Shown one piece after another: positions 3,655 through 18,405 of a stretch of 64,000 nt of DNA. The notes beneath the pieces are model-generated. The model was given only the letters and a program-made list of their open reading frames with translations. It was not told where the DNA came from and ran no database searches. Origin of the DNA: Methanomicrobiales archaeon (lineage in GTDB: Archaea > Halobacteriota > Methanomicrobia > Methanomicrobiales > JACTUA01); the NCBI GenBank assembly GCA_015660865.1, contig JACTUA010000001.1, positions 388,304-452,303 of the forward strand, given 5' to 3'. The translations under genes were made by a program, and so were the position numbers. Position 1 is the first letter of the stretch. Every line of letters starts with the position of its first letter.

Positions 3655-3880
3655 AGCCGTTGCGTTCAGCCCCTTGAATCCATCCGGCCTTCAGCTTGCA
3701 GGGCGGGGTGGACTTCGCCGGTTATTCGCCCTGTCCCTGGATCACCTATTGTGTTCGGAACTGATCAGCCAGCCGGCCTTCTGGATGTATCGCCCGGCCT
3801 ACCCCGGTCCGGGGCGGGGGGCCTTTCGGGGCCTTCCGATCACCCAGGCCCTGGGGCGGGGTGACGGTGTACGGGGGATG
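3655..3880. repeat. GC-rich intergenic repeat, copy B
   Basis: Longer copy of the repeat seen at 395-495. It includes a CCCTGGATCACCTATTGTGTTCGG section shared with copies at 5225-5430 and 14825-15035, a CCCCGGTCCGGGGCGGGG section, and the core ACCCAGGCCCTGGGGCGGGG at 3841-3860. Several open frames cross it but have only low-complexity Gly/Arg/Pro composition. Confidence 0.7.
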
Positions 3881-4614: not shown

Positions 4615-4827
4615 ATGAAGACTATCACCATCCGCGACGAGACCCACCGTGCCCTCGCCAGGCTGAAGGAGGCGGATGACAGCTTCAGCGACGTCATCGA
4701 CCGTCTCATCGAGGAGAAGACCGGCGATATCCGCAGGTTCGCGGGCGTGCTGAGGGACTCGGAGATTCTCGATTCCCTCTCGGAGTTCACGAAGAGCCTG
4801 AGGGCTTCGGGAAGGCCGAGAGTATGA
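4615..4827 (+). CDS. vapB: VapB-type antitoxin
   Basis: About 70 residues from the ATG at 4615 (an in-frame ATG at 4603 is also possible). MKTITIRDETHRALARLKE is a ribbon-helix-helix DNA-binding start, followed by DSFSDVIDRLIEEK, the pattern of archaeal VapB antitoxins (UPF0330-like). The C-terminal tail probably wraps the toxin. Its end overlaps the VapC start by 4 nt, so this is a standard two-gene type II toxin-antitoxin module, probably autoregulated by the complex. Confidence 0.85.
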   Translation: MKTITIRDETHRALARLKEADDSFSDVIDRLIEEKTGDIRRFAGVLRDSEILDSLSEFTKSLRASGRPRV

Positions 4828-5228
4828 TCGTCCTCGACACCTCGTTCCTCATCGACTACTTCCGGGACCGCGAACTTCAGTCATACATACCGGATGAGGA
4901 GAAGGTGGCCGTTACGGTGATCTCGTACTATGAGATTATGGCCGGGATCAAACGTCTCCGGTCAAAACAGGAGGAGAGGTTCTTCCAGCACTTCTTCGGA
5001 ACGGTCGATATCCTGGGTGTCGATACCCCCTCGGCCGAGATCGCGAGCGATATCACGGCGAAACTATCAGGTCTTGGAATCCAGGTGAATGCCTTCGATG
5101 TCCTCATCGCCGGTACTGCGGTCGCCAGCCGCGCCACGGCCATCATCACCGCTGACCGGGACTTTGAGGAGATCGCGAAGTGTGCGGATATTGATATAAC
5201 ATTCTATTCACGCAGAGGAATTGACTGA
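4824..5228 (+). CDS. vapC: VapC-type PIN-domain toxin
   Basis: 134 residues, a full PIN domain. Acidic metal-binding residues are in the expected places: Asp5 (MIVLDTSFLIDYF), Glu37 (YYEIMAGI), Asp92 (NAFDVLIAGTA) and Asp111/Asp113 (TADRDFEEI). VapC toxins are Mg-dependent RNases that cut tRNA or rRNA to slow growth; VapB blocks the active site. The length is typical and no residue is missing, so the toxin is probably functional. The GC-rich repeat copy C begins right after the stop. Confidence 0.9.
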   Translation: MIVLDTSFLIDYFRDRELQSYIPDEEKVAVTVISYYEIMAGIKRLRSKQEERFFQHFFGTVDILGVDTPSAEIASDITAKLSGLGIQVNAFDVLIAGTAVASRATAIITADRDFEEIAKCADIDITFYSRRGID

Positions 5229-5430
5229 ACCGGGGTCATCGGGGAAAACGATCTCGGCCCTGGGGATATGCCCGGTTTTCGCCCAGTCCCTGGACCACCA
5301 ATCATGTTCGGTCCCTGATACGGGGCCGGCCTTCGGCCTGGGTCTGATCCTCAAGCGTGGATACCGGCGGTGGCGGGGGCCTTCGGGGCCTCGCTGGCCG
5401 GCCCAGGCCCTGGGGCGGGGTGGGACGGAC
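5225..5430. repeat. GC-rich intergenic repeat, copy C
   Basis: Contains CCCTGGACCACCAATCATGTTCGGTCC, GGCCGGCCTTCGGCCTGG, a section CTGATCCTCAAGCGTGGATACCGGCGGTGGCGGGGGCC that recurs in modified form near 19357-19400, and the core GGCCCAGGCCCTGGGGCGGG at about 5400-5419. The remaining bases up to 5748 are AT-rich with no gene. Confidence 0.7.
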
Positions 5431-5711
5431 GGGGGATTTCAGTTAAGACCACAATACAAGGACGGAGAAGAGGGCAGCGGAGGTGGGAGGGTGAGGAGGT
5501 GATAAAATTGACATCTGATTTTTAGGAATGTCAATAATTGAAAATACTGCAAAACAATCAATATGGGACAAATTACATCATAAAATTATTTCTTATTTTA
5601 AAATTATCTTTAAAATTAAACGGAATTATGTAAATATTCATGTATGCCTCCAAAAATTCGTTTGATCGAAAAATATTGAATATCTGTCGGAGAATACCTG
5701 TGAACAAAAGA

Positions 5712-5748
5712 TAATTTATTATATATCCATAACCGATAACGGGAACAT
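5712..5748 (+). promoter_or_regulatory. TATA promoter of the tubulin-GTPase operon
   Basis: TTATTATATATCC at about 5716-5728 lies some 27 nt before the ATG at 5749, which would put the transcription start at or next to the start codon. The first gene is therefore probably read from a leaderless mRNA; no Shine-Dalgarno site is visible. Confidence 0.5.
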
Positions 5749-6534
5749 ATGTTCCGTTTCAAGAAGCCCGTCTGGATAATCTGGATTTTCGTTGCTGTTG
5801 TTATCGGTATTTTCATTTTGCCGGGATCGGTCACGGCCATTTCAGATACCTCTTTGAACACAACCCAGCTGGAAGGAAATTCAATTCAACTTTCCTATAC
5901 GATCGATGCATATCCCAAACAGACAGCTGGTATCGAACTTGAAACGGATTTGGTGCACTACGGGAATGTAAGTCTCTGGAATATCGATAACAGTGAACAA
6001 TTCAATATCGCAAATCCTGACCAGGCCCTCAATGGGCAGAAGCTGCTCCTCACGCTCCCGGATGGATGGACCTCTCCAGTTCATATAACAATTGATGGGA
6101 AAGTTCCAACTATCACAGGCGTGAACCAGTGTGATGGCGTAGTTCTTACCAGGCAGCCGGATAAGAAAACCGGATTCATCTTTTACAGGATTACTACGCT
6201 TGATAAAAATGGGGACGTTGTGGGCACAGCCTCGACACAAACCTTTGATATAGACGTTCCTGCAGAAGATAGCTTCAGGAACCGGTTAAATGCCCTGGGC
6301 GATGAAAATTTGAAAAATATCATTATAAATATCCATGATGAAGGGCTCACGAAAGAGGCCGATACCCTCCTCGCCTATGCAGAACAGGAGCCGAGCCAGG
6401 TTCCTGTCCTGTACACAATCGGCCTCTCGATTCTCCTTATCATCATTGTAGGGTTTGGGGGGTACGTGATAGGGTTCCGGAAGGGGAAAGGAAGGAGAGA
6501 AGATGAAGAACCGGATGAAACGGAGATGGATTGA
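5749..6534 (+). CDS. Single-pass membrane protein with extracellular beta domain, first gene of the tubulin-GTPase operon
   Basis: 261 residues, unrecognised. A signal peptide or anchor occupies about 1-30 (hydrophobic WIIWIFVAVVIGIFILPG). An extracellular domain follows (about 31-215), rich in Asn/Thr and beta-strand-like (TLPDGWTSPVHITIDG), with one Cys. A second membrane helix (about 219-242, TIGLSILLIIIVGFGGYVIG) leads to a short, strongly charged cytoplasmic tail (KGKGRREDEEPDETEMD). The next gene starts 3 nt after the stop, so the two are surely cotranscribed. The tail could contact the cytoplasmic GTPases encoded downstream; that is inference from topology. Confidence 0.75.
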   Translation: MFRFKKPVWIIWIFVAVVIGIFILPGSVTAISDTSLNTTQLEGNSIQLSYTIDAYPKQTAGIELETDLVHYGNVSLWNIDNSEQFNIANPDQALNGQKLLLTLPDGWTSPVHITIDGKVPTITGVNQCDGVVLTRQPDKKTGFIFYRITTLDKNGDVVGTASTQTFDIDVPAEDSFRNRLNALGDENLKNIIINIHDEGLTKEADTLLAYAEQEPSQVPVLYTIGLSILLIIIVGFGGYVIGFRKGKGRREDEEPDETEMD

Positions 6535-6537
6535 ACC

Positions 6538-9500
6538 ATGGTAGACGTTGAAACAAAACCATTCCAGATGCCAAATGACCTGACAGTTATTGCTGTCGGG
6601 GGTTGTGGAAAGAGGCTTGTAAATCACCTTTGCGACCATGAATGGTTTTTCAGGCATTTCCTGACTGAGAACAAGACCCTGAATATCTATATCATGGATA
6701 CCGATACAAACCAGAGGCCGCAGGATCTCCAGATTGAGAAGAACAGGAAGGCACAGATTTTCAATTTGCAGAAGACCCAGGAAGGGTTTGGCGGTAAGAT
6801 CGAGTATTCATATTATTACCTGCCCGATCTGGCTCAGGTTGAACAGCCGACCGCTCTCACGTCCAGTGATGTAATCGCACAGATTAAAAGTCGCCGGGTC
6901 AGGCCGGAAGTCAAGGTATGGTGGATGAACGATCCACCGGCATGGACCTATGACAACATGAAAAAAATAGATCCGAATATCGTGAATGACTTCGGTGGAG
7001 GGGTCCATCGCCGGCGGGCAATCTCAAAGGCGGTCTTCTTCAAGGCCATCACACAGAGTTCCGGCCGGTTTCCCTCCTTCCAGGGATCCGGCGATACAGC
7101 CATCGTGGTTGGTCTCGGGGGAGGAACGGGGGGCGGGATGTTCATCGATCTTGCCCGTTACATCCATGATCGTAAGGGAGCTCATAGTAAAATCTGGCTC
7201 TTTGCAGTTCTTCCATCCACCGATGAAAGCCCCAATGAGCAGTTAAACGCTGCCATTACCCTTTTCGAACTGGAATACCTGAACCTTATTGAAGATAAAC
7301 TGTTCAATTTCATTGTCCTGTCATCGCTTGGACCAACGGGGTATAAACCCGGTCTGGATAATAAGAAGGAGGTCATCGATTTTGACAATGCCTTCCCGTA
7401 TCTCCTCATCAATGCGTTTTACCTGCCCCATTCGGATATTGCCGATATCATTGACGCGAAAAAGGATTATTCCGGTTTCATTGTCGGGGACGCTCATGTG
7501 ATAGAGTACCCGATTGAAGAATTGAAGAATTTGAAGACGGAATTTGAGAATATCATAAAAGAACTGGAAGATATTAAAATAAACCGTGAAAAATCCATTG
7601 GTGTCGTCGACGAACTTCTCAACCGGATCATTGTCCAGTTCCCTGAGCAGATCCGGAAGCCCGAGGAAGTTGCGGTAACAACCACCGATATTCTCCTGGT
7701 AAAAAAAGAGATCGAGAGACTCCGGAGATTATGGGATAACGAGATGGCATCTCTCCTGAGATACAAAACTCCGGAAGAGATCAACTCCTTTATCAAGAAC
7801 AATATGCCTGTCGATCTCAAGGTTCTCGAGAAGATCGATCTCTATGATAAGCTCATCGAATACGTCCAGAAGGTCTCAAGCTTCATGAAGATCGAGAATA
7901 AGCATCTCGAACATGAATCTGATAAATCCCTTTATGTCAAGATCCGTGATTCCCTTGATCTCATCGAATCATTCGCAAAGCTCCAGAAGAGAATTCTCGG
8001 TATAGAGGAAGAGAATGCACGGAATGCCCTGCTGAAGATCGTGAGAGCAGATGTTGACTTCGCCCAGATCCTCGGTGAGATCAATCAAAGAAAAGCCACC
8101 ATCCGGGCAGAACTTGTTGAAACACAGGTGAAGGAGAAGGAGAAGTCTGACGAAGTCGGGAACCTGAAAGAGGAGAGCAGGAAGATCGAGGGGCATGTGT
8201 CTGTCGTCTGTAATGAAGAGACCCCCCTTATCACGTTCTATACCGAGAACAGGAATAAATATCAGGCCTCGCAGAAGAATGAAGCACTTTTTATCGAAAA
8301 ATTTACATCGATGAGCAATACCGTTGCCCGGGAATATGGCAGGTACAGTGATGCCCAGCCACCGGGATATAACCGTAAGAAATGGCTCGAGATGGCCAAA
8401 GTTTCGGAGATCGAAGCGGTCATCGATAAGTTACCCGATGATACGGTGAGCACCGAATACCGGGAAATACTCAAGAAATTACCAGGCACCTATGCCGAGT
8501 ATTATTATTACGATTTCCGGATTGAAGTCGAGAAGAAGCCGGTCTCGGTATTTGCGAAGGTTGCCAGGGCGGTCATACATACTATTGACGGGATCGTCGG
8601 GGAGAAACCTGTCCTGAAACAATACGAGGATAAAAAACAGATAACACGGGAGTACCTCGAAAGGATTTCCCGACAGTCCAAGGGCACCATCATGCTTCGG
8701 AGTTCAATGCAGATGGATTTCCAGGGAGGATTCATATCAGATACGGCCCGGCAGAAGACCGAGGATATGAAGAACAGAATTCAGGGGGACCTTGCGAAGA
8801 AACTGGAGCTGTCTGAAGAGGAGATAAAACTCCTGGCCCCCGCATTTGAGAAAGGCGATGAAGATGGCATCAGGAATGAATTCAAGAAAATTCTCGGGGA
8901 TATCCTCCTCAGGAGAAATGCCGTTTCTGAAAAAGTAATGAAGAAAGAACAGGAGAGAGATGAGTTCATCAGGAGCGAGAATGAGCTCCAGCACAAGCTC
9001 TCGTTCTACGCCGAGATCGATCGTGTCATTGACGAAACCGTCTCCTTCCGGCGGGAATACAATCTGCACGTGGGACTCTTTGAACAGGGATTGAAAAAGA
9101 TTGACGAGAAAAAGAAGACCGGTATCGAGACGATCCGGGGGCTCTTCAGGTCGCGGCTCGGTGAGATCAATCCCCGGGTACTTCCTCTCATTGATGAACG
9201 TTCAGGTTCAGATATGGGGGCTCTCGATGGCAGCGAGGAAGGACTCCGTGAGATCGCCCGGCTCATCAATCTCGTTCATCAGAAGTCCAAGGATATCGTG
9301 AAAGCGGAGATGCTTGGCCTGAATAAATTTGTGATCGAATATGGGAACAATAACTGGTGCCTCGATAAAGCGGCTCTGGTTATTGCCTCAACATCCCATG
9401 CCATCTCTTCCCATATCGTGAATGAGGCAGACAATATAAGACGACCCCTTTCAATTAATACGCTCTCTCTCCGGAATCTGAATGACCTGGCAGTGGTCTC

Positions 9501-9816
9501 GCATAATTATACGAGACCGTGGGATGTTGCCATTACCTTCTTTGGGAGTGCAACATTTCTCGAAAATATTGCCCCCCTTATATCAGGCCAGGGGTATTGG
9601 GAGAAATATGACCGGAACCGGAATAATTTACTCCACCATGTCCTCTTCCTGCAGGACGGAAAATACCTCAGTCGCGAGGACCTGCTCAAAGATGTGGAAG
9701 CCGCGGAAAAGGCAAACATGGAACGGTTCGGCAGGGAGGAGCAGCGCAGGGAAGTCGTCAATGATATTCTGAAACTCTACAAGCTGAAGGATTTGAATGA
9801 GGCCGTGAAGAGATGA
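6538..9816 (+). CDS. Tubulin/FtsZ-like GTPase with very long coiled-coil region
   Basis: 1092 residues, far longer than FtsZ (about 350-400). The N-terminal nucleotide-binding domain (about 14-330) starts DLTVIAVGGCGKR, the first glycine loop, and carries the tubulin signature GGGTGGG at residues 194-200 (VVGLGGGTGGGMFID), as in the 'Tubulin_2'-type tubulin-like family. From about 335 to 930 the protein is Glu/Lys/Arg-rich with long heptad-like stretches, so probably coiled coil. The last 150 residues are again globular (AITFFGSATFLENIAPL) and might complete the tubulin fold. No membrane helix is present, so it should be cytoplasmic. Its stop overlaps the start of the membrane GTPase gene. 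Likely role: a filament-forming or complex-scaffolding GTPase; no substrate is known. Confidence 0.8.
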   Translation: MVDVETKPFQMPNDLTVIAVGGCGKRLVNHLCDHEWFFRHFLTENKTLNIYIMDTDTNQRPQDLQIEKNRKAQIFNLQKTQEGFGGKIEYSYYYLPDLAQVEQPTALTSSDVIAQIKSRRVRPEVKVWWMNDPPAWTYDNMKKIDPNIVNDFGGGVHRRRAISKAVFFKAITQSSGRFPSFQGSGDTAIVVGLGGGTGGGMFIDLARYIHDRKGAHSKIWLFAVLPSTDESPNEQLNAAITLFELEYLNLIEDKLFNFIVLSSLGPTGYKPGLDNKKEVIDFDNAFPYLLINAFYLPHSDIADIIDAKKDYSGFIVGDAHVIEYPIEELKNLKTEFENIIKELEDIKINREKSIGVVDELLNRIIVQFPEQIRKPEEVAVTTTDILLVKKEIERLRRLWDNEMASLLRYKTPEEINSFIKNNMPVDLKVLEKIDLYDKLIEYVQKVSSFMKIENKHLEHESDKSLYVKIRDSLDLIESFAKLQKRILGIEEENARNALLKIVRADVDFAQILGEINQRKATIRAELVETQVKEKEKSDEVGNLKEESRKIEGHVSVVCNEETPLITFYTENRNKYQASQKNEALFIEKFTSMSNTVAREYGRYSDAQPPGYNRKKWLEMAKVSEIEAVIDKLPDDTVSTEYREILKKLPGTYAEYYYYDFRIEVEKKPVSVFAKVARAVIHTIDGIVGEKPVLKQYEDKKQITREYLERISRQSKGTIMLRSSMQMDFQGGFISDTARQKTEDMKNRIQGDLAKKLELSEEEIKLLAPAFEKGDEDGIRNEFKKILGDILLRRNAVSEKVMKKEQERDEFIRSENELQHKLSFYAEIDRVIDETVSFRREYNLHVGLFEQGLKKIDEKKKTGIETIRGLFRSRLGEINPRVLPLIDERSGSDMGALDGSEEGLREIARLINLVHQKSKDIVKAEMLGLNKFVIEYGNNNWCLDKAALVIASTSHAISSHIVNEADNIRRPLSINTLSLRNLNDLAVVSHNYTRPWDVAITFFGSATFLENIAPLISGQGYWEKYDRNRNNLLHHVLFLQDGKYLSREDLLKDVEAAEKANMERFGREEQRREVVNDILKLYKLKDLNEAVKR

Positions 9817-11396
9817 TCATTCACAACAGGAAGCGGAGAGATATTTTAATCGGATCCATCATTCTGGGTATCATCACCGTCCTCCTTTTTATTTACCTTT
9901 CGGGTGTTTACCAGATCCCCCCCTTCCCCCCTCTCCTGTACCTCATCCTTTATAGCCTATCCGGTTTTTTTATCATCATCGCTGCCGGAATGCTCATATC
10001 CCCGGATTCGCGGATCAGCGGCATTTTATTTCTTATTATTTTTGTCAGCCTCACTCTTTACTTCGGACTTTCTAAACTTGCCCAGGGCAACATAATGAGT
10101 ATCTATGGACTCCTTGGAGGTGTCGGTGTGGCACTCCTCCTCATGATCTATATTATACGATTCAACCGTTTTGATGTCCTTGCCAGAAGCGCAAAGGCTC
10201 TTCTCACGGTATTTTTTGTGGTCATCCTTGCCTATTTCATATCCAGTTTCTATTTAACAAATGATGAGATCCAGGTTGCATCCCCTGGATCCACTGATAT
10301 CATGATACAGAATCTTTTTTTCTATGGTGTAGGGCTGGTAATTGCTATTCTCTTCTATATTCTGCTCCTTTATTCGGTGGTCGGTGTGAAGGCCTCTGAT
10401 ATCTTCATTTTTGGCCCGAGAAATTCCGGAAAGACCTATTTCCTTCTTGGCTTTTATGAATATATTACCCAGCCGGATATCGGCGGTGAAGGAGGGGAGA
10501 GTATCGTATTCTCCGAGAGTGAAATCGATGAAGAAAATCTCAAACTGGATACCATGTATTCCAAAGCCCATTTTGGAGAGGTCATCAGCCGGACCCCGAA
10601 TTACGTGATGGGAATTTATGAGCTCCTCGGATGGAAAATGTTCGCAGGGTATCGGATCACTCCTATCCGGTGGAAAATGGTGGATTATTCAGGAGAACAT
10701 TACGATATCCTCAATGGACAAAGTTTTAAAAAATCCATGGAATTCCTGAGCAAAACCCTGAACCTATCATTAATTGAGGTGTATAAGAAGGTTGCAACCA
10801 AACGATTTTACCGGGATATAAAACAGAATCACCGCGATAAACTGGGAGACGTTGAATTTCGACGGAGTCTCGTGATTTCAGCCCTGTACTCCCACCTGCT
10901 CCATGCGGGTAAGGTGATCTTCCTTGTTGACGGGGATAAACTCCTTGATCCATCCGGAAATCAGAAACTTGCGAGAGAGTTTGGGCAGTATTACAGGATC
11001 ATCAGGGATATTGAGGGATGGAAACTGTGGAACTTCCTTGGTGCGAATAAAAAATATGCATTCGTCGTGACGAAATCAGATCGTGTGGTAAATCAAAACC
11101 TTGGATCATCAGCAGATCCGAATGAACTCGTCACCATGCTCAGAAGATACGAGATAAAAATATTTCCGGATATTCCGGAAAATTCCGATCTGGCGGTGAA
11201 GGTGGAAGAGTATTTTCGCTCCCTGTTAAATGACATTGCGACTTACCGGGCCCTTGAGCATCACCTGAATGACATCAACCTCAACTTCATTGCGGTGAGC
11301 AGCGATCGGAATGCCATGTCATTTGAAACGGAAATGGCTACTCCACTCAAACTGCAGCCATGGAGGTTCAGCCAGATCTTTAAATTTGGGGCATGA
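9813..11396 (+). CDS. Polytopic membrane protein with TRAFAC-like GTPase domain
   Basis: 527 residues. About six hydrophobic helices lie in residues 10-195, then a cytoplasmic G domain. G-motifs: P-loop GPRNSGKT at 201-208, G3 DYSG at 291-294, and a G4-like TKSD at 420-423 (usual form NKxD). VIFLVDGDKLLD gives a further G-domain strand. The pattern fits GTPases found beside tubulin-like proteins in bacterial and archaeal gene neighbourhoods rather than a transport ATPase. Start ATGA overlaps the tubulin-like stop and the stop overlaps the next start, so translation is coupled. Likely a membrane platform whose GTP cycle controls, or is controlled by, the tubulin-like partner (inference). Confidence 0.75.
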   Translation: MIIHNRKRRDILIGSIILGIITVLLFIYLSGVYQIPPFPPLLYLILYSLSGFFIIIAAGMLISPDSRISGILFLIIFVSLTLYFGLSKLAQGNIMSIYGLLGGVGVALLLMIYIIRFNRFDVLARSAKALLTVFFVVILAYFISSFYLTNDEIQVASPGSTDIMIQNLFFYGVGLVIAILFYILLLYSVVGVKASDIFIFGPRNSGKTYFLLGFYEYITQPDIGGEGGESIVFSESEIDEENLKLDTMYSKAHFGEVISRTPNYVMGIYELLGWKMFAGYRITPIRWKMVDYSGEHYDILNGQSFKKSMEFLSKTLNLSLIEVYKKVATKRFYRDIKQNHRDKLGDVEFRRSLVISALYSHLLHAGKVIFLVDGDKLLDPSGNQKLAREFGQYYRIIRDIEGWKLWNFLGANKKYAFVVTKSDRVVNQNLGSSADPNELVTMLRRYEIKIFPDIPENSDLAVKVEEYFRSLLNDIATYRALEHHLNDINLNFIAVSSDRNAMSFETEMATPLKLQPWRFSQIFKFGA

Positions 11397-13069
11397 CGGG
11401 AGGTGAAAATGTGTCACTGCTCTATGGCGTCTTCACAACCGATGGCGAATACGAAAAAGGTAACTTCCAGGTGATAGACCAGGAATTTCCGGATCTTGTG
11501 AGGAAACTTGCCGACAGTGACGTCGCGCTTTACCTGAAGATCACGGAAACACAGATAATCATTGGATCTGAAATAAATCTCAAGATCAAGGGCGGCAGAA
11601 ACGATTCCCGGGTATTCATTCTGAGATATGGTAACGGGGGTACTCTTCAACCCATTGACCTTTCCGATATACTCAAGAGATTTTTTCCCTCAGCATTCGA
11701 GTATCTTCAGGGAGCGGATTTTCACATCCTCAATGTGTGGGGGGACGAGCAGTTCACCGGGAAGATCAAAAATCTGGAGGATACCCCTCTCCCTCCTGTC
11801 GGTGAAATATCGCAGGTTGTTGCCGGGAAACTGCTCACAGGAAAACCGGTCTATGTTGAAGCAAGGGACCTCTTCAAGGCAATTTGTCTTATCTCGGAAG
11901 TGGCGACGATCGTTCAACCCATCGACTATCTTGAATATACTTTTGTCATCTCACGTCTGAGTTTCGTTGATGCGGATCTTCTCGTGGGACCAAATAAGCC
12001 TTTGAACACAGAGTTTGATCTGAACCTGGATACTGGAAAAATCCTCGCTGTTGCAGGCCTGGAGCAAAAATATAAACAGATGGTGAAAAATTCGAAGAAT
12101 GAACTGATTTTAAAGAAAATATCGAATAAAGAATTTAAGACAAAGCAGGACCTGGCAACAGGTATTACTCAAGAATCCTGGAAGGGCCTTCCGGGGATAG
12201 AGAAGATGGAATGGGAAAAAATCGCCTCTCCCCTGGGTCTCCAGATTTCTCTCTCTGCGAAAGAGGCAATCGATGCTGTTCTCATAACCGGGAATATAAG
12301 TTACTGGAATCGGTATATCTCGAGTCCTGCCTTCAACATCCAGGAGTTCAAAGCGGCCATTTCAAAAGAACCGTGGAACAACTTCGAGAGATTCATTCAG
12401 CTTATCCGCCCATCCCTGCTGGCAGCCAGGGATCCCCTCAAAACTGCAATATACGACGTCCTCATGGAAACGATCAATGGCCTCCACGCACGAGCAGACC
12501 AGACAGCCGGCTTATTGGCAGGGATAAAACCCGAGATCAGGCAGATACCCGTCAGTGGAAAGTTCCCTCCAGAAGAAAAACCCTTGACAAGGAGGGGTCC
12601 ACGGAAGACATACCTTGTAATCGGGATTCTTGTCCTCATCATCGCTGTCGCGTTCGTCGCGATGATGTCAGTTCTAGGAGGGATGGCACCTGGTGAAGCA
12701 CCTTCGGAGCGTACCATATCCGAAAATGGGGGAACACTTGCAATTTTGAATCTAACGATGGGCAAGGAAAACATTACAAAGTTTGATACCCTGAACTCTA
12801 CTGCACTTCCGCAAGATCTTCCGAGAAATTATACCTCTAACAATCAGGAATATTCTCTGAATATATCCAAAATACTAAAAATAGAACCCGATAGTGCACA
12901 AATACAAGGTACGCTCACAATTTATACCCCTGAGCTCACAATCAGCACGGGTTTCATGGGTCATTATAATGCATCATCGAAGGAATGGGAAGAAATTATT
13001 CCCATAATTAATCAACCGGATTTCACGCTGCCAATTACCTCCGGAGGAATTTATGGGGTATTTTCCTGA
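11393..13069 (+). CDS. Membrane-anchored partner protein of the GTPase pair, unknown family
   Basis: 558 residues. A large cytoplasmic N-terminal region (about 1-400) begins LLYGVFTTDGEYEKGNFQV, and one membrane helix (about 403-425, YLVIGILVLIIAVAFVAMM) leads to a C-terminal extracellular beta-rich domain of about 130 residues. Family not recognised. Its fixed place directly after the GTPase, with a 4-nt overlap, suggests a GTPase-associated regulator or adaptor, but no GAP motif can be demonstrated by eye. The in-frame GTG at 11411 (VSLLYG) is an alternative start. Confidence 0.65.
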   Translation: MTGGENVSLLYGVFTTDGEYEKGNFQVIDQEFPDLVRKLADSDVALYLKITETQIIIGSEINLKIKGGRNDSRVFILRYGNGGTLQPIDLSDILKRFFPSAFEYLQGADFHILNVWGDEQFTGKIKNLEDTPLPPVGEISQVVAGKLLTGKPVYVEARDLFKAICLISEVATIVQPIDYLEYTFVISRLSFVDADLLVGPNKPLNTEFDLNLDTGKILAVAGLEQKYKQMVKNSKNELILKKISNKEFKTKQDLATGITQESWKGLPGIEKMEWEKIASPLGLQISLSAKEAIDAVLITGNISYWNRYISSPAFNIQEFKAAISKEPWNNFERFIQLIRPSLLAARDPLKTAIYDVLMETINGLHARADQTAGLLAGIKPEIRQIPVSGKFPPEEKPLTRRGPRKTYLVIGILVLIIAVAFVAMMSVLGGMAPGEAPSERTISENGGTLAILNLTMGKENITKFDTLNSTALPQDLPRNYTSNNQEYSLNISKILKIEPDSAQIQGTLTIYTPELTISTGFMGHYNASSKEWEEIIPIINQPDFTLPITSGGIYGVFS

Positions 13070-13126
13070 TTTTATTCGATTTTATTCAGTTGTGAAAATT
13101 GTCAGCAAATAAGGTGAATTTTTCAC

Positions 13127-14659
13127 ATGAAAGAACCCTTCTTCTGCCCGAATTTCAGGAAAAATCTCTCTCGAATGATCTTGCTCCTTCTCTTTCTCGC
13201 CCCTCTTCTTCAGCACGCGATGGCCGCAGATACCGGTACCCTCATTATTTCATCCTATCCGCTTGGTGCAGGCATCTACCTGGATGACAAGTTCATAGGA
13301 AACGCAACGCGGAACATCATTCTTGAGAACGTCGGCGTCGGGATACACTATGTAGAATGGCGAATGGAACATTACAATGGCTGTGTTAAGATTATCAGCA
13401 TAGACCAGGGCGAAATCGCCGCAGCCCACTGTGATCTGGTCCCCAGGTTGGGGAATATCAAGGTAGAATCCGACCCCCCGGGTGCAACCATCATTCTTGA
13501 TGAAACGACTGTGAAGGGCAAAACAAACATGATAGTAACAGATATTCTTGAGGGGCCCCATTCTGTGACATTGAGATTGCCTAACTACTATGATTGCGTG
13601 CTTCCGGTCGCGGTTGAGGAGATGGTGACGGTTCCTGTCCAATGCAATCTGGAAGAAATCCCCACAACAGGAACTATCAATGCGAATTCAACACCCCCAG
13701 GGGCAGATGTTTACCTGGATCAGATCTCGTTGGGTGTCTCGAACCTAAAAATTCCTAAGATTGAACCAGGGAGACATACGCTTTCCTTTATCAAATACGG
13801 ATATCATGATTGGTCAACCACCATTGATGTGGTCGCAGCGAAGACCTATGATATTAATGCAATATTGGTTCTGAAGAACGGGACCATATCTCTCACTTCG
13901 AACCCTTCGGATGTTGAGATAATTATTGATGGCCTGAATATAGGAAAGACTCCTTATCACGGTGAATTCTTCCAGGGAACCCACCGTGTCCTGTTCTCCT
14001 CTCCTGCTGGTTACCGGAATCTCACTACTACCATTATCGTTCCCTACGAAGGGACCAGCCTGGCGGTGACTCTCGAATGCGCGGCTCCTGACGCAATCAA
14101 TCAGGCTGAGAAGGATATCAACGACAATGCAATGTTCAACCCCGGTACGGCGCGAGGACTTCTGCAGGATGCTCGAAATCTCCTCGCATCAAACAGGTGT
14201 GTTGATGCTTTTGACATGGCAGCTAATGCTTCTGTTTGGGCAAAAGATATTGATAATGACGGAGTTCCAAATTTTCAGGATGTGTGGAAGAGCATTCCAA
14301 ATATTTTTGTATATTATACTCCTTTCATCATTGTGCTTTTCGGATTGATAGGTATTGCCTACCACCGGGGAATATCTCAATTGACCCCAAAGATCACCAT
14401 TGAAGAGCTCCCTCCCACCGATGACCAAGAGAGAACTATTCGGGTAACGACTCAGCTGAAAAAGATGCCGGAATTTTTCTATTGTGCTGTTTTAATCGAC
14501 GGCAAAGTTATCGATCAGCTGGATGCGCCCGGGACTAAGGATGTTCCACTCGGTAGATTGGATCCAGGCACGTATACAATCCAAGTGGATCTGGATGCTT
14601 ACCGGAACAAGCTCTGGCGAAACCATACCGAAGAGTCACGTGAAATCGTGGTTCCATAA
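13127..14659 (+). CDS. PEGA-repeat surface protein with membrane anchor and cytoplasmic domain
   Basis: 510 residues. Signal peptide at about 1-34 (LLLLFLAPLLQHAMA), then four PEGA-type beta repeats of about 70 residues each, recognised by GTLIISSYPLGAGIYLDDKFIG, IKVESDPPGATIILDE, INANSTPPGADVYLDQ and ISLTSNPSDVEIIIDG. A membrane helix (about 390-412) leads to a C-terminal beta domain on the cytoplasmic side. PEGA repeats bind cell-wall or S-layer polymers or other surface proteins. The gene follows the operon after a 57-nt gap, so it is probably cotranscribed, and would give the tubulin-GTPase assembly an external anchor (inference). Confidence 0.8.
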   Translation: MKEPFFCPNFRKNLSRMILLLLFLAPLLQHAMAADTGTLIISSYPLGAGIYLDDKFIGNATRNIILENVGVGIHYVEWRMEHYNGCVKIISIDQGEIAAAHCDLVPRLGNIKVESDPPGATIILDETTVKGKTNMIVTDILEGPHSVTLRLPNYYDCVLPVAVEEMVTVPVQCNLEEIPTTGTINANSTPPGADVYLDQISLGVSNLKIPKIEPGRHTLSFIKYGYHDWSTTIDVVAAKTYDINAILVLKNGTISLTSNPSDVEIIIDGLNIGKTPYHGEFFQGTHRVLFSSPAGYRNLTTTIIVPYEGTSLAVTLECAAPDAINQAEKDINDNAMFNPGTARGLLQDARNLLASNRCVDAFDMAANASVWAKDIDNDGVPNFQDVWKSIPNIFVYYTPFIIVLFGLIGIAYHRGISQLTPKITIEELPPTDDQERTIRVTTQLKKMPEFFYCAVLIDGKVIDQLDAPGTKDVPLGRLDPGTYTIQVDLDAYRNKLWRNHTEESREIVVP

Positions 14660-14824: not shown

Positions 14825-15035
14825 AGAAAACTGGCCTGCGTCGCCGGGCCACACCCCGGTCCGTAGCGGGGACCTTCGGGGGCGTCGCCGGCCTTGGCCC
14901 GGGATCACAAGTTGTTGTTCGGTCCCCGATCGGCTGGCCGGCCTTCGGTCCGGATCCGCGTACCTGAGGTGCGTCCGGGGCGGGGGGGCCTTAGGGGCCT
15001 TCGTCGGCCCGGGCCCTGGGGCGGGGGGGAATACC
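14825..15035. repeat. GC-rich intergenic repeat, copy D
   Basis: The longest copy. It holds GTCGCCGGGCCACACCCCGGTCCG (shared with the copy at 18305-18405), GGGATCACAAGTTGTTGTTCGGTCC (shared with copies B and C), GATCGGCTGGCCGGCCTTCGG (shared with copy A), and the core GGCCCGGGCCCTGGGGCGGG at about 15006-15025. It therefore joins modules seen separately in the other copies. Confidence 0.7.
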
Positions 15036-18308: not shown

Positions 18309-18405
18309 TCCGGTGCCCGGCCTCCGGCCGGCGTCGCCGGGCCACACCCCGGTCCGGAGGGGCTTCGGGGCCTTCGCCGGCCCAGGCCCTGGGGCGGGTG
18401 GGCAT
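18305..18405. repeat. GC-rich intergenic repeat, copy E
   Basis: Contains GTCGCCGGGCCACACCCCGGTCCG (identical block in copy D), CTTCGGGGCCTTCGCCGG and the core GGCCCAGGCCCTGGGGCGGG at about 18379-18398. This is the last copy of the family in the window. Confidence 0.7.

Follow-up and report, generated by a model that had tools for sequence, protein, structure and literature searches.

The window, a 64,000-nucleotide stretch of a Methanomicrobiales genome, contains five genes, referred to here as P1 to P5, encoding an anchored protein, a tubulin-like protein, a polytopic membrane GTPase, a putative GTPase regulator and a surface protein. All five open reading frames were confirmed on the forward strand, with gaps of 3, -4, -4 and 57 nt from P1 to P5 (Table 1), in agreement with the original prediction of a single operon. 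By predicted topology, four of the five proteins are membrane-spanning, which supports the proposed layout from cytoplasm to cell surface. A TATA-like AT-rich box lies approximately 20-38 nt 5' of the P1 ATG, and Methanomicrobiaceae relatives display a similar box, AAATATTTAA, at a comparable distance. The predicted TATA promoter is backed by the sequence, and its leaderless character is plausible, the leader being possibly short or absent.

Table 1. Coordinates of the operon features in the window.
Feature	Position	Strand	Remarks
Putative TATA-type promoter	5700..5748	+	TTATTATATATCC at about 5718-5730, just 5' of P1; from sequence
P1, secreted/anchored protein	5749..6534	+	Signal/TM 10-28, ~185-aa external domain, C-terminal TM 218-236, short charged tail
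P2, FtsZl1-type tubulin-like protein, 1092 aa	6538..9816	+	Pfam Tubulin_2/Tubulin, AlphaFold2 and Foldseek
P2 tubulin/FtsZ nucleotide-binding domain, residues 13-325	6574..7512	+	Beta-alpha order in AlphaFold2 model; conservation
P2 T4 signature GGGTGGG, residues 194-200	7117..7137	+	Near-invariant, 28 homologues
P2 long helices/coiled coil, residues 326-920, diverged	7513..9297	+	AlphaFold2 helices 326-861; identity about 0.40
P2 conserved C-terminal domain, residues 921-1092	9298..9813	+	Identity 0.58
P3, polytopic membrane GTPase: six TMs, then TRAFAC-type DO-GTPase2-like G domain	9813..11396	+	
P3 G1/Walker A GPRNSGKT, residues 201-208	10413..10436	+	G201, G206, K207 invariant
P3 G3 DYSG, residues 291-294	10683..10694	+	D291, Y292, G294 invariant
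P3 G4 TKSD, residues 420-423 (guanine specificity)	11070..11081	+	T420, K421, D423 invariant
P4, cytoplasmic longin/DENN-like putative GTPase regulator, C-terminal TM, external beta domain	11393..13069	+	AlphaFold2, Foldseek, P3 adjacency
P4 longin/roadblock-like beta2-alpha-beta3-alpha domain, residues 9-107	11417..11713	+	AlphaFold2; Foldseek
P4 alpha/beta segment, residues 110-199	11720..11989	+	AlphaFold2
P4 all-helical segment, residues 224-372	12062..12508	+	AlphaFold2
P4 TM helix, residues 409-427	12617..12673	+	Topology prediction
P4 external beta-rich domain, residues 431-558, rich in N-glycosylation sequons	12683..13066	+	Sequon density
P5, surface protein, four PEGA repeats	13127..14659	+	Signal, TM 393-411, ~95-aa cytoplasmic tail

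An Rfam search of window positions 1-25000 gave no match. No long repeat flanks the operon, just a GC-rich core of about 20 nt, GGCCC[AG]GGCCCTGGGGCGGG, present in five copies (462-481, 3841-3860, 5400-5419, 15006-15025 and 18379-18398; four exact, one with two mismatches) where none is expected by chance. The copies share one orientation, lie on both sides of the operon and possibly represent a dispersed REP-like or mobile element. A stand-alone PIN-domain (VapC-like) gene occupies positions 4824-5228, just 5' of the operon.

The tubulin fold, the GGGTGGG signature and the probable coiled coil attributed to P2 from its sequence were all recovered. Profile searches gave Pfam Tubulin_2 (PF13809, 37.4 bits, cut-off 27) and Tubulin (33.4 bits, cut-off 33) above their cut-offs, and the FtsZ/tubulin C-terminal domain was not detected by Pfam; against PDB sequences, the P2 profile reached FtsZ/tubulin only at borderline values (E 0.04-0.2). 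The AlphaFold2 model, obtained from 28 sequences, has a mean pLDDT of 73.8 and a pTM of 0.48, at which domain packing is not reliable, and displays the strand-helix alternation of the tubulin fold. Using Foldseek against the PDB, this model matched CetZ2, FtsZ and gamma-tubulin at probability 1.00 over ~300-335 columns, with TM-scores of 0.40-0.46 when normalised to CetZ2/FtsZ, as expected if only the nucleotide domain is common to these proteins and P2. Among the 28 homologues, G194-G198 and G200 of the signature (GGGTG[S/G]G; GGGTGSG in relatives, GGGTGGG in the window) and G21, G22, G24 and K25 of the T1 loop are invariant. Mean pairwise column identity is 0.65 for residues 1-343, ~0.40 in the coiled-coil middle and 0.58 over the last 172 residues, the GTP-binding loops being the best-conserved portion of the protein. 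The C-terminal domain carries the motif W[DE]...LTF...xFLDNI.PL..GGGYW..Y...LHH..L..GKY..R, shared with haloarchaeal members and missing from the bacterial ones aligned.

The canonical T7 motif of FtsZ (NxDxxD) is absent from P2 and was not found in an alignment of 17 members, with D306, a lone acid kept in nearly all archaeal members aligned, as a weak candidate. Given the missing T7, assembly-coupled GTP hydrolysis may be absent from P2. The lack of a T7 motif matches the description by Makarova and Koonin of a T6-H7/T7 region that is unidentifiable in FtsZl1 (PMC2875224). The possibility that the last 170 residues complete a tubulin C-terminal domain that the coiled coil, as an insertion, has split was also considered; it fits the conservation (0.65/0.40/0.58) and the strand order, but residues 994-1042 have a pLDDT <50 and the model is too uncertain for such a claim. 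In the P2 tree, the window protein is placed beside a Methanoregula sequence, within the clade of five-gene loci and apart from the Methanosarcinaceae/Methanofollis clade. The window genome has another tubulin-family match elsewhere, which is shorter (409-aa frame).

P3 is indeed a polytopic membrane GTPase as first proposed, with all three G motifs present and invariant (consensus G....GK, DYxG and TKxD across 29 homologues) behind six predicted TM helices. The DO-GTPase2 family (PF19993) matches P3 at 22.1 bits, below the cut-off of 27, and 16 of the 29 homologues at E<=0.01 (best 2.4e-8); against PDB sequences, the P3 profile gave a borderline match to SRP-receptor-beta (E 0.025). In three haloarchaeal loci (L069, L071, L072) the FtsZl1 gene is followed by a five-TM P3-like protein without a P-loop, and the locus also has a P-loop GTPase. 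By hhalign, this GTPase matches the P-loop-less paralogue at 99.7 % and P3 matches the GTPase at 98.3 %.

P4 had been presented as anchored in the membrane and carrying an external beta domain. The TM helix and the external location of the last ~130 residues stand, whereas the bulk of the protein (~400 residues) is cytoplasmic: five K/R residues precede the single TM and one follows it, which places the N-terminal ~405 residues inside. Sequon density is consistent with this topology, amounting to 3.39 per 100 aa in the external domain against 1.21 expected from composition, and to 0.44 against 0.49 in the cytoplasmic part. The AlphaFold2 model (30 sequences) has a mean pLDDT of 80.5, with residues 10-370 mostly above 85-90, and agreed with a longin-like beta2-alpha-beta3-alpha start that had been predicted from the alignment before modelling. 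Among 350,542 PDB chains, the best Foldseek match was DENND1A (E 4.9e-4, probability 0.97), followed by DENND10, TagF and a chain of the FLCN GAP complex, and further down by the C9ORF72-SMCR8 complex, GATOR1/KICSTOR chains, the MglA-MglB complex and Ragulator. The matches are largely GTPase regulators, in a list that also contains unrelated beta proteins. Full-alignment TM-scores are low (0.20-0.30; DENND1A 0.20-0.27) with large rmsd, and the longin-like domain reaches 0.53, by target length, against a 120-aa Ragulator complex chain (6wj2_B). The order of secondary structure in the model fits that of the tripartite longin/DENN/d-DENN module of Zhang et al. 2012 (PMC3521125), and no DENN/longin similarity was found at the sequence level in an HMM search of 22 homologues or with the profile against PDB sequences. 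We also considered P4 as a GAP1 protein, for which HMM and hhalign searches gave no support: the GAP1 N, M and C domains had no HMM match in the 22 homologues, PF20013 was not found in the window genome, and hhalign against GAP1, with two weak targets only, gave no match.

All 21 strong P4 genes among 345 genomes sampled from the phylum lie downstream of P3 at a distance of -19 to +101 nt (21/21 genomes), one of these genomes (G195) having no detected P2. Since this pairing is so tight and was also seen without a detected P2, P4 belongs with the GTPase no less than with the tubulin. Three genomes from a single Methanomicrobiales genus (L036, L037, L038) carry the P3-P4 pair and gave no tubulin when searched; the gene preceding the pair in L036 codes for a protein of 667 aa and about 14 TM helices. 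By hhalign, similarity between P4 and the downstream genes of Geoglobus, Methanoperedens and haloarchaea was marginal at best. On the basis of the model, we tentatively suggest that P4 may be an archaeal longin-DENN-type regulator of a membrane GTPase, found outside Asgard and tied to a tubulin-family scaffold, and a relative or precursor of the DENN module, although this seems rather doubtful at present.

A survey of gene neighbourhoods confirmed that the genes travel together. With the tubulin fold recovered as well, neither of the two outcomes that would have refuted the original prediction (no tubulin fold, no linkage) was observed. P2 is present in 33 and P3 in 35 of the 232 genomes of the class, with P3 directly downstream of P2 in 32/32 assessable genomes, the 33rd being cut at a contig end. 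All five genes are intact, in the same order and strand, in 16 relatives, other loci being cut or broken. Methanosarcina, Methanolobus and Methanosalsum have P1-P2-P3-P4 and no PEGA gene, Methanofollis has P1-P2-P3, and Geoglobus and Methanoperedens have P1-P2-P3 with unassigned membrane proteins; haloarchaeal loci were also found. In Methanomicrobiales, Methanosarcinaceae, Geoglobus and Methanoperedens, the tubulin gene is immediately preceded by a P1 homologue. The description of P5 as a four-PEGA-repeat surface protein with a cytoplasmic tail is borne out by the Pfam stretches (E 1.8e-44) and by the predicted TM helix and tail. It is not central to the system: P5 was seen only in Methanomicrobiales among the loci examined, and those of Methanosarcinaceae, Geoglobus and haloarchaea lack PEGA. 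Judging from these locus contents, the old core is P1-P2-P3, usually with P4, and P5 is a Methanomicrobiales addition. Within its family as searched, where most other genomes are incomplete, P2 was detected in the window genome alone, making the distribution patchy.

Some loci deserve separate mention. One genome (G086) has a very diverged second P2 paralogue (about 25% identity) directly after P5 (L012, 14280-17567), for which the genome search reported one in-frame stop; in L023 it has a third P2, with a P3 of its own. A contig binned as 'Bacteroidota bacterium' (L043) carries an archaeal five-gene operon very close to that of Methanoculleus UBA430 (L045) and is probably mis-binned. In Methanogenium cariaci (L062), P1, P2 and P4 are each broken into several frames, either as pseudogenes or through sequencing errors.

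To account for these observations, we give about an even chance to a scheme that casts P2 as a tubulin-family scaffold with a role other than division, located at the inner face of the membrane and switched by the polytopic GTPase P3, the regulator P4 and envelope-facing proteins. P2 would bind GTP and self-assemble, as a filament or raft, on the cytoplasmic face of the membrane, with P3 acting as a membrane switch for its recruitment or release. P4 would be a dedicated regulator of P3, its cytoplasmic module docking on the G domain in a GEF- or GAP-like manner, and its TM helix and sequon-rich external domain would couple this activity to the envelope. P4 would set the nucleotide state of P3, on which the condition of the envelope would also act by way of P4, P1 and P5, P1 and, here, the PEGA protein P5 being further envelope-facing sensors or anchors. 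The output would probably be local organisation or remodelling of the cytoplasmic membrane or S-layer rather than cell division. A division or FtsZ/CetZ-replacement system, which the place of P2 in the tubulin superfamily might suggest, is very unlikely considering its sporadic distribution, the shorter tubulin-family match elsewhere in the window genome, the C-terminal FtsZ/tubulin Pfam domain not detected in P2, and the typical coexistence of FtsZl1 with FtsZ (Makarova and Koonin, PMC2875224).

We consider it improbable that the operon is a DO-GTPase-type biological-conflict (anti-phage or suicide) system, with the GTPase and P4 as sensor or threshold switch and a polymerising tubulin-like effector. 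The conflict systems predicted by Kaur et al. combine N-terminal-TM DO-GTPases, a downstream GAP1, coiled-coil tubulins and PEGA/beta-sandwich parts, with a few archaeal cases (PMC7159879); the patchy distribution of P2 (33/232 genomes) and the haloarchaeal loci with a GTPase and its P-loop-less paralogue point in the same direction. However, the operon has no GAP1 domain by HMM and no effector domain, PADLOC identified no defence families among the five operon proteins and ten flanking proteins of relatives, and the flanking genes are ordinary (ATP synthase D, GAPDH-like, antiporter, transporters). Moreover, all five genes are under purifying selection, external parts included, with pN/pS in close pairs of 0.02-0.13 for P2, 0.05-0.31 for P3, 0.09-0.34 for P1 and P5, and 0.11-0.49 for P4, whose external part is not clearly faster. 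Because of this selection, the empty PADLOC result and the ordinary flanks, a role in cell architecture is favoured and a conflict system disfavoured. A regulated complex for envelope stress or surface anchoring, with P2 as a non-polymerising scaffold and the coiled coil as its working part, also appears unlikely. It would agree with the T7 catalytic motif missing from P2, the conservation of P1 and the GTPase with P2, the membrane-crossing nature of 4/5 proteins and the predicted action of DO-GTPases in membrane stress (PMC11237479), but the GTP-binding loops are the best conserved part of P2 (0.65), which is unexpected if nucleotide-driven assembly had been lost.

FtsZl1 was predicted in 2010 to be a membrane-remodelling machine (PMC2875224), and no experimental study on it was found in the open-access literature searched. 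The four- to five-gene unit offers a compact set of tubulin, GTPase, putative regulator and surface parts in cultured methanogens (Methanosarcina, Methanogenium, Methanomicrobium mobile), and yields the specific prediction that P3 is controlled by P4.

In comparison with known systems, the operon represents the archaeal branch of FtsZl1, a family still uncharacterised, in its Methanomicrobiales form. Novelty of the operon as a kind is not upheld, since FtsZl1 and its operons were described in 2010 (PMC2875224) and the bacterial DO-GTPase/tubulin/PEGA parts in 2020 (PMC7159879). Makarova and Koonin named FtsZl1, noted its operons with a diverged GTPase, membrane-associated in archaea, and distinguished an archaeal branch (PMC2875224). 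The window shares with it the N-terminal FtsZ-like domain with GGGTG(S/T)G, the extended coiled coil, the mostly helical C-terminal domain and the linked membrane GTPase (32/32). In contrast, it has no vWA or protein-kinase gene; Pfam detected no vWA domain among the five proteins, and this gene, found in the majority but not all of FtsZl1 operons (PMC2875224), is accessory rather than family-defining. The main text of that paper does not identify P1, P4 and P5, nor does it describe a PEGA protein or a longin-like P4. The link of the putative regulator encoded by gene 4 to the FtsZl1 system is new. Archaeal elements combining a Tubulin_2 protein with PEGA proteins are also known from Borgs, all of which reportedly encode large homologues of FtsZ-tubulin (Tubulin_2) along with numerous PEGA proteins (PMC9605863, PMC9879509).

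The bacterial loci of Kaur et al. (2020) contain DO-GTPases, coiled-coil tubulins, PEGA/beta-sandwich parts and the three-domain protein GAP1, whose gene usually follows that of the GTPase (PMC7159879). The operon resembles these DO-GTPase/GAP1-N2/tubulin loci in its DO-GTPase2-like G domain with N-terminal TMs, its coiled-coil tubulin, its PEGA or beta-sandwich surface parts and a partner encoded directly 3' of the GTPase, P4 having the position and the three-part layout of GAP1. The haloarchaeal GTPase/pseudo-GTPase pair likewise recalls the paired GTPases behind the DO-GTPase name. The operon differs in the absence of GAP1, FNIII, HSP70 and vWA, in a PF19993 score below cut-off, and in being under purifying selection outside any defence context. 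We do not file it as a DO-GTPase/GAP1 conflict system because P4 has no GAP1 domain by HMM. By analogy, the operon may work like these systems and, judged by position and three-part layout, the GAP1 proteins of bacteria may be equivalents of P4.

With the eukaryotic longin-DENN regulators (DENND1A, DENND10, FLCN, C9ORF72 and NPRL2 types), P4 shares in its model the order longin-like, alpha/beta, all-helical, and a GTPase as partner gene; the prokaryotic roadblock/longin-type MglB and TagF are also comparable. Unlike them, P4 shows no sequence similarity, has a TM anchor and an external domain, and is paired with a polytopic TRAFAC-type GTPase instead of a Rab. The DENN and d-DENN parts were regarded as eukaryote-only. 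If P4 is truly longin-DENN-like, regulation of membrane GTPases in connection with a tubulin-type cytoskeleton would be older than the Asgard-eukaryote lineage or fall outside it. We find the greatest interest of the operon in its obligate P3-P4 pair and the possible longin-DENN fold of P4.
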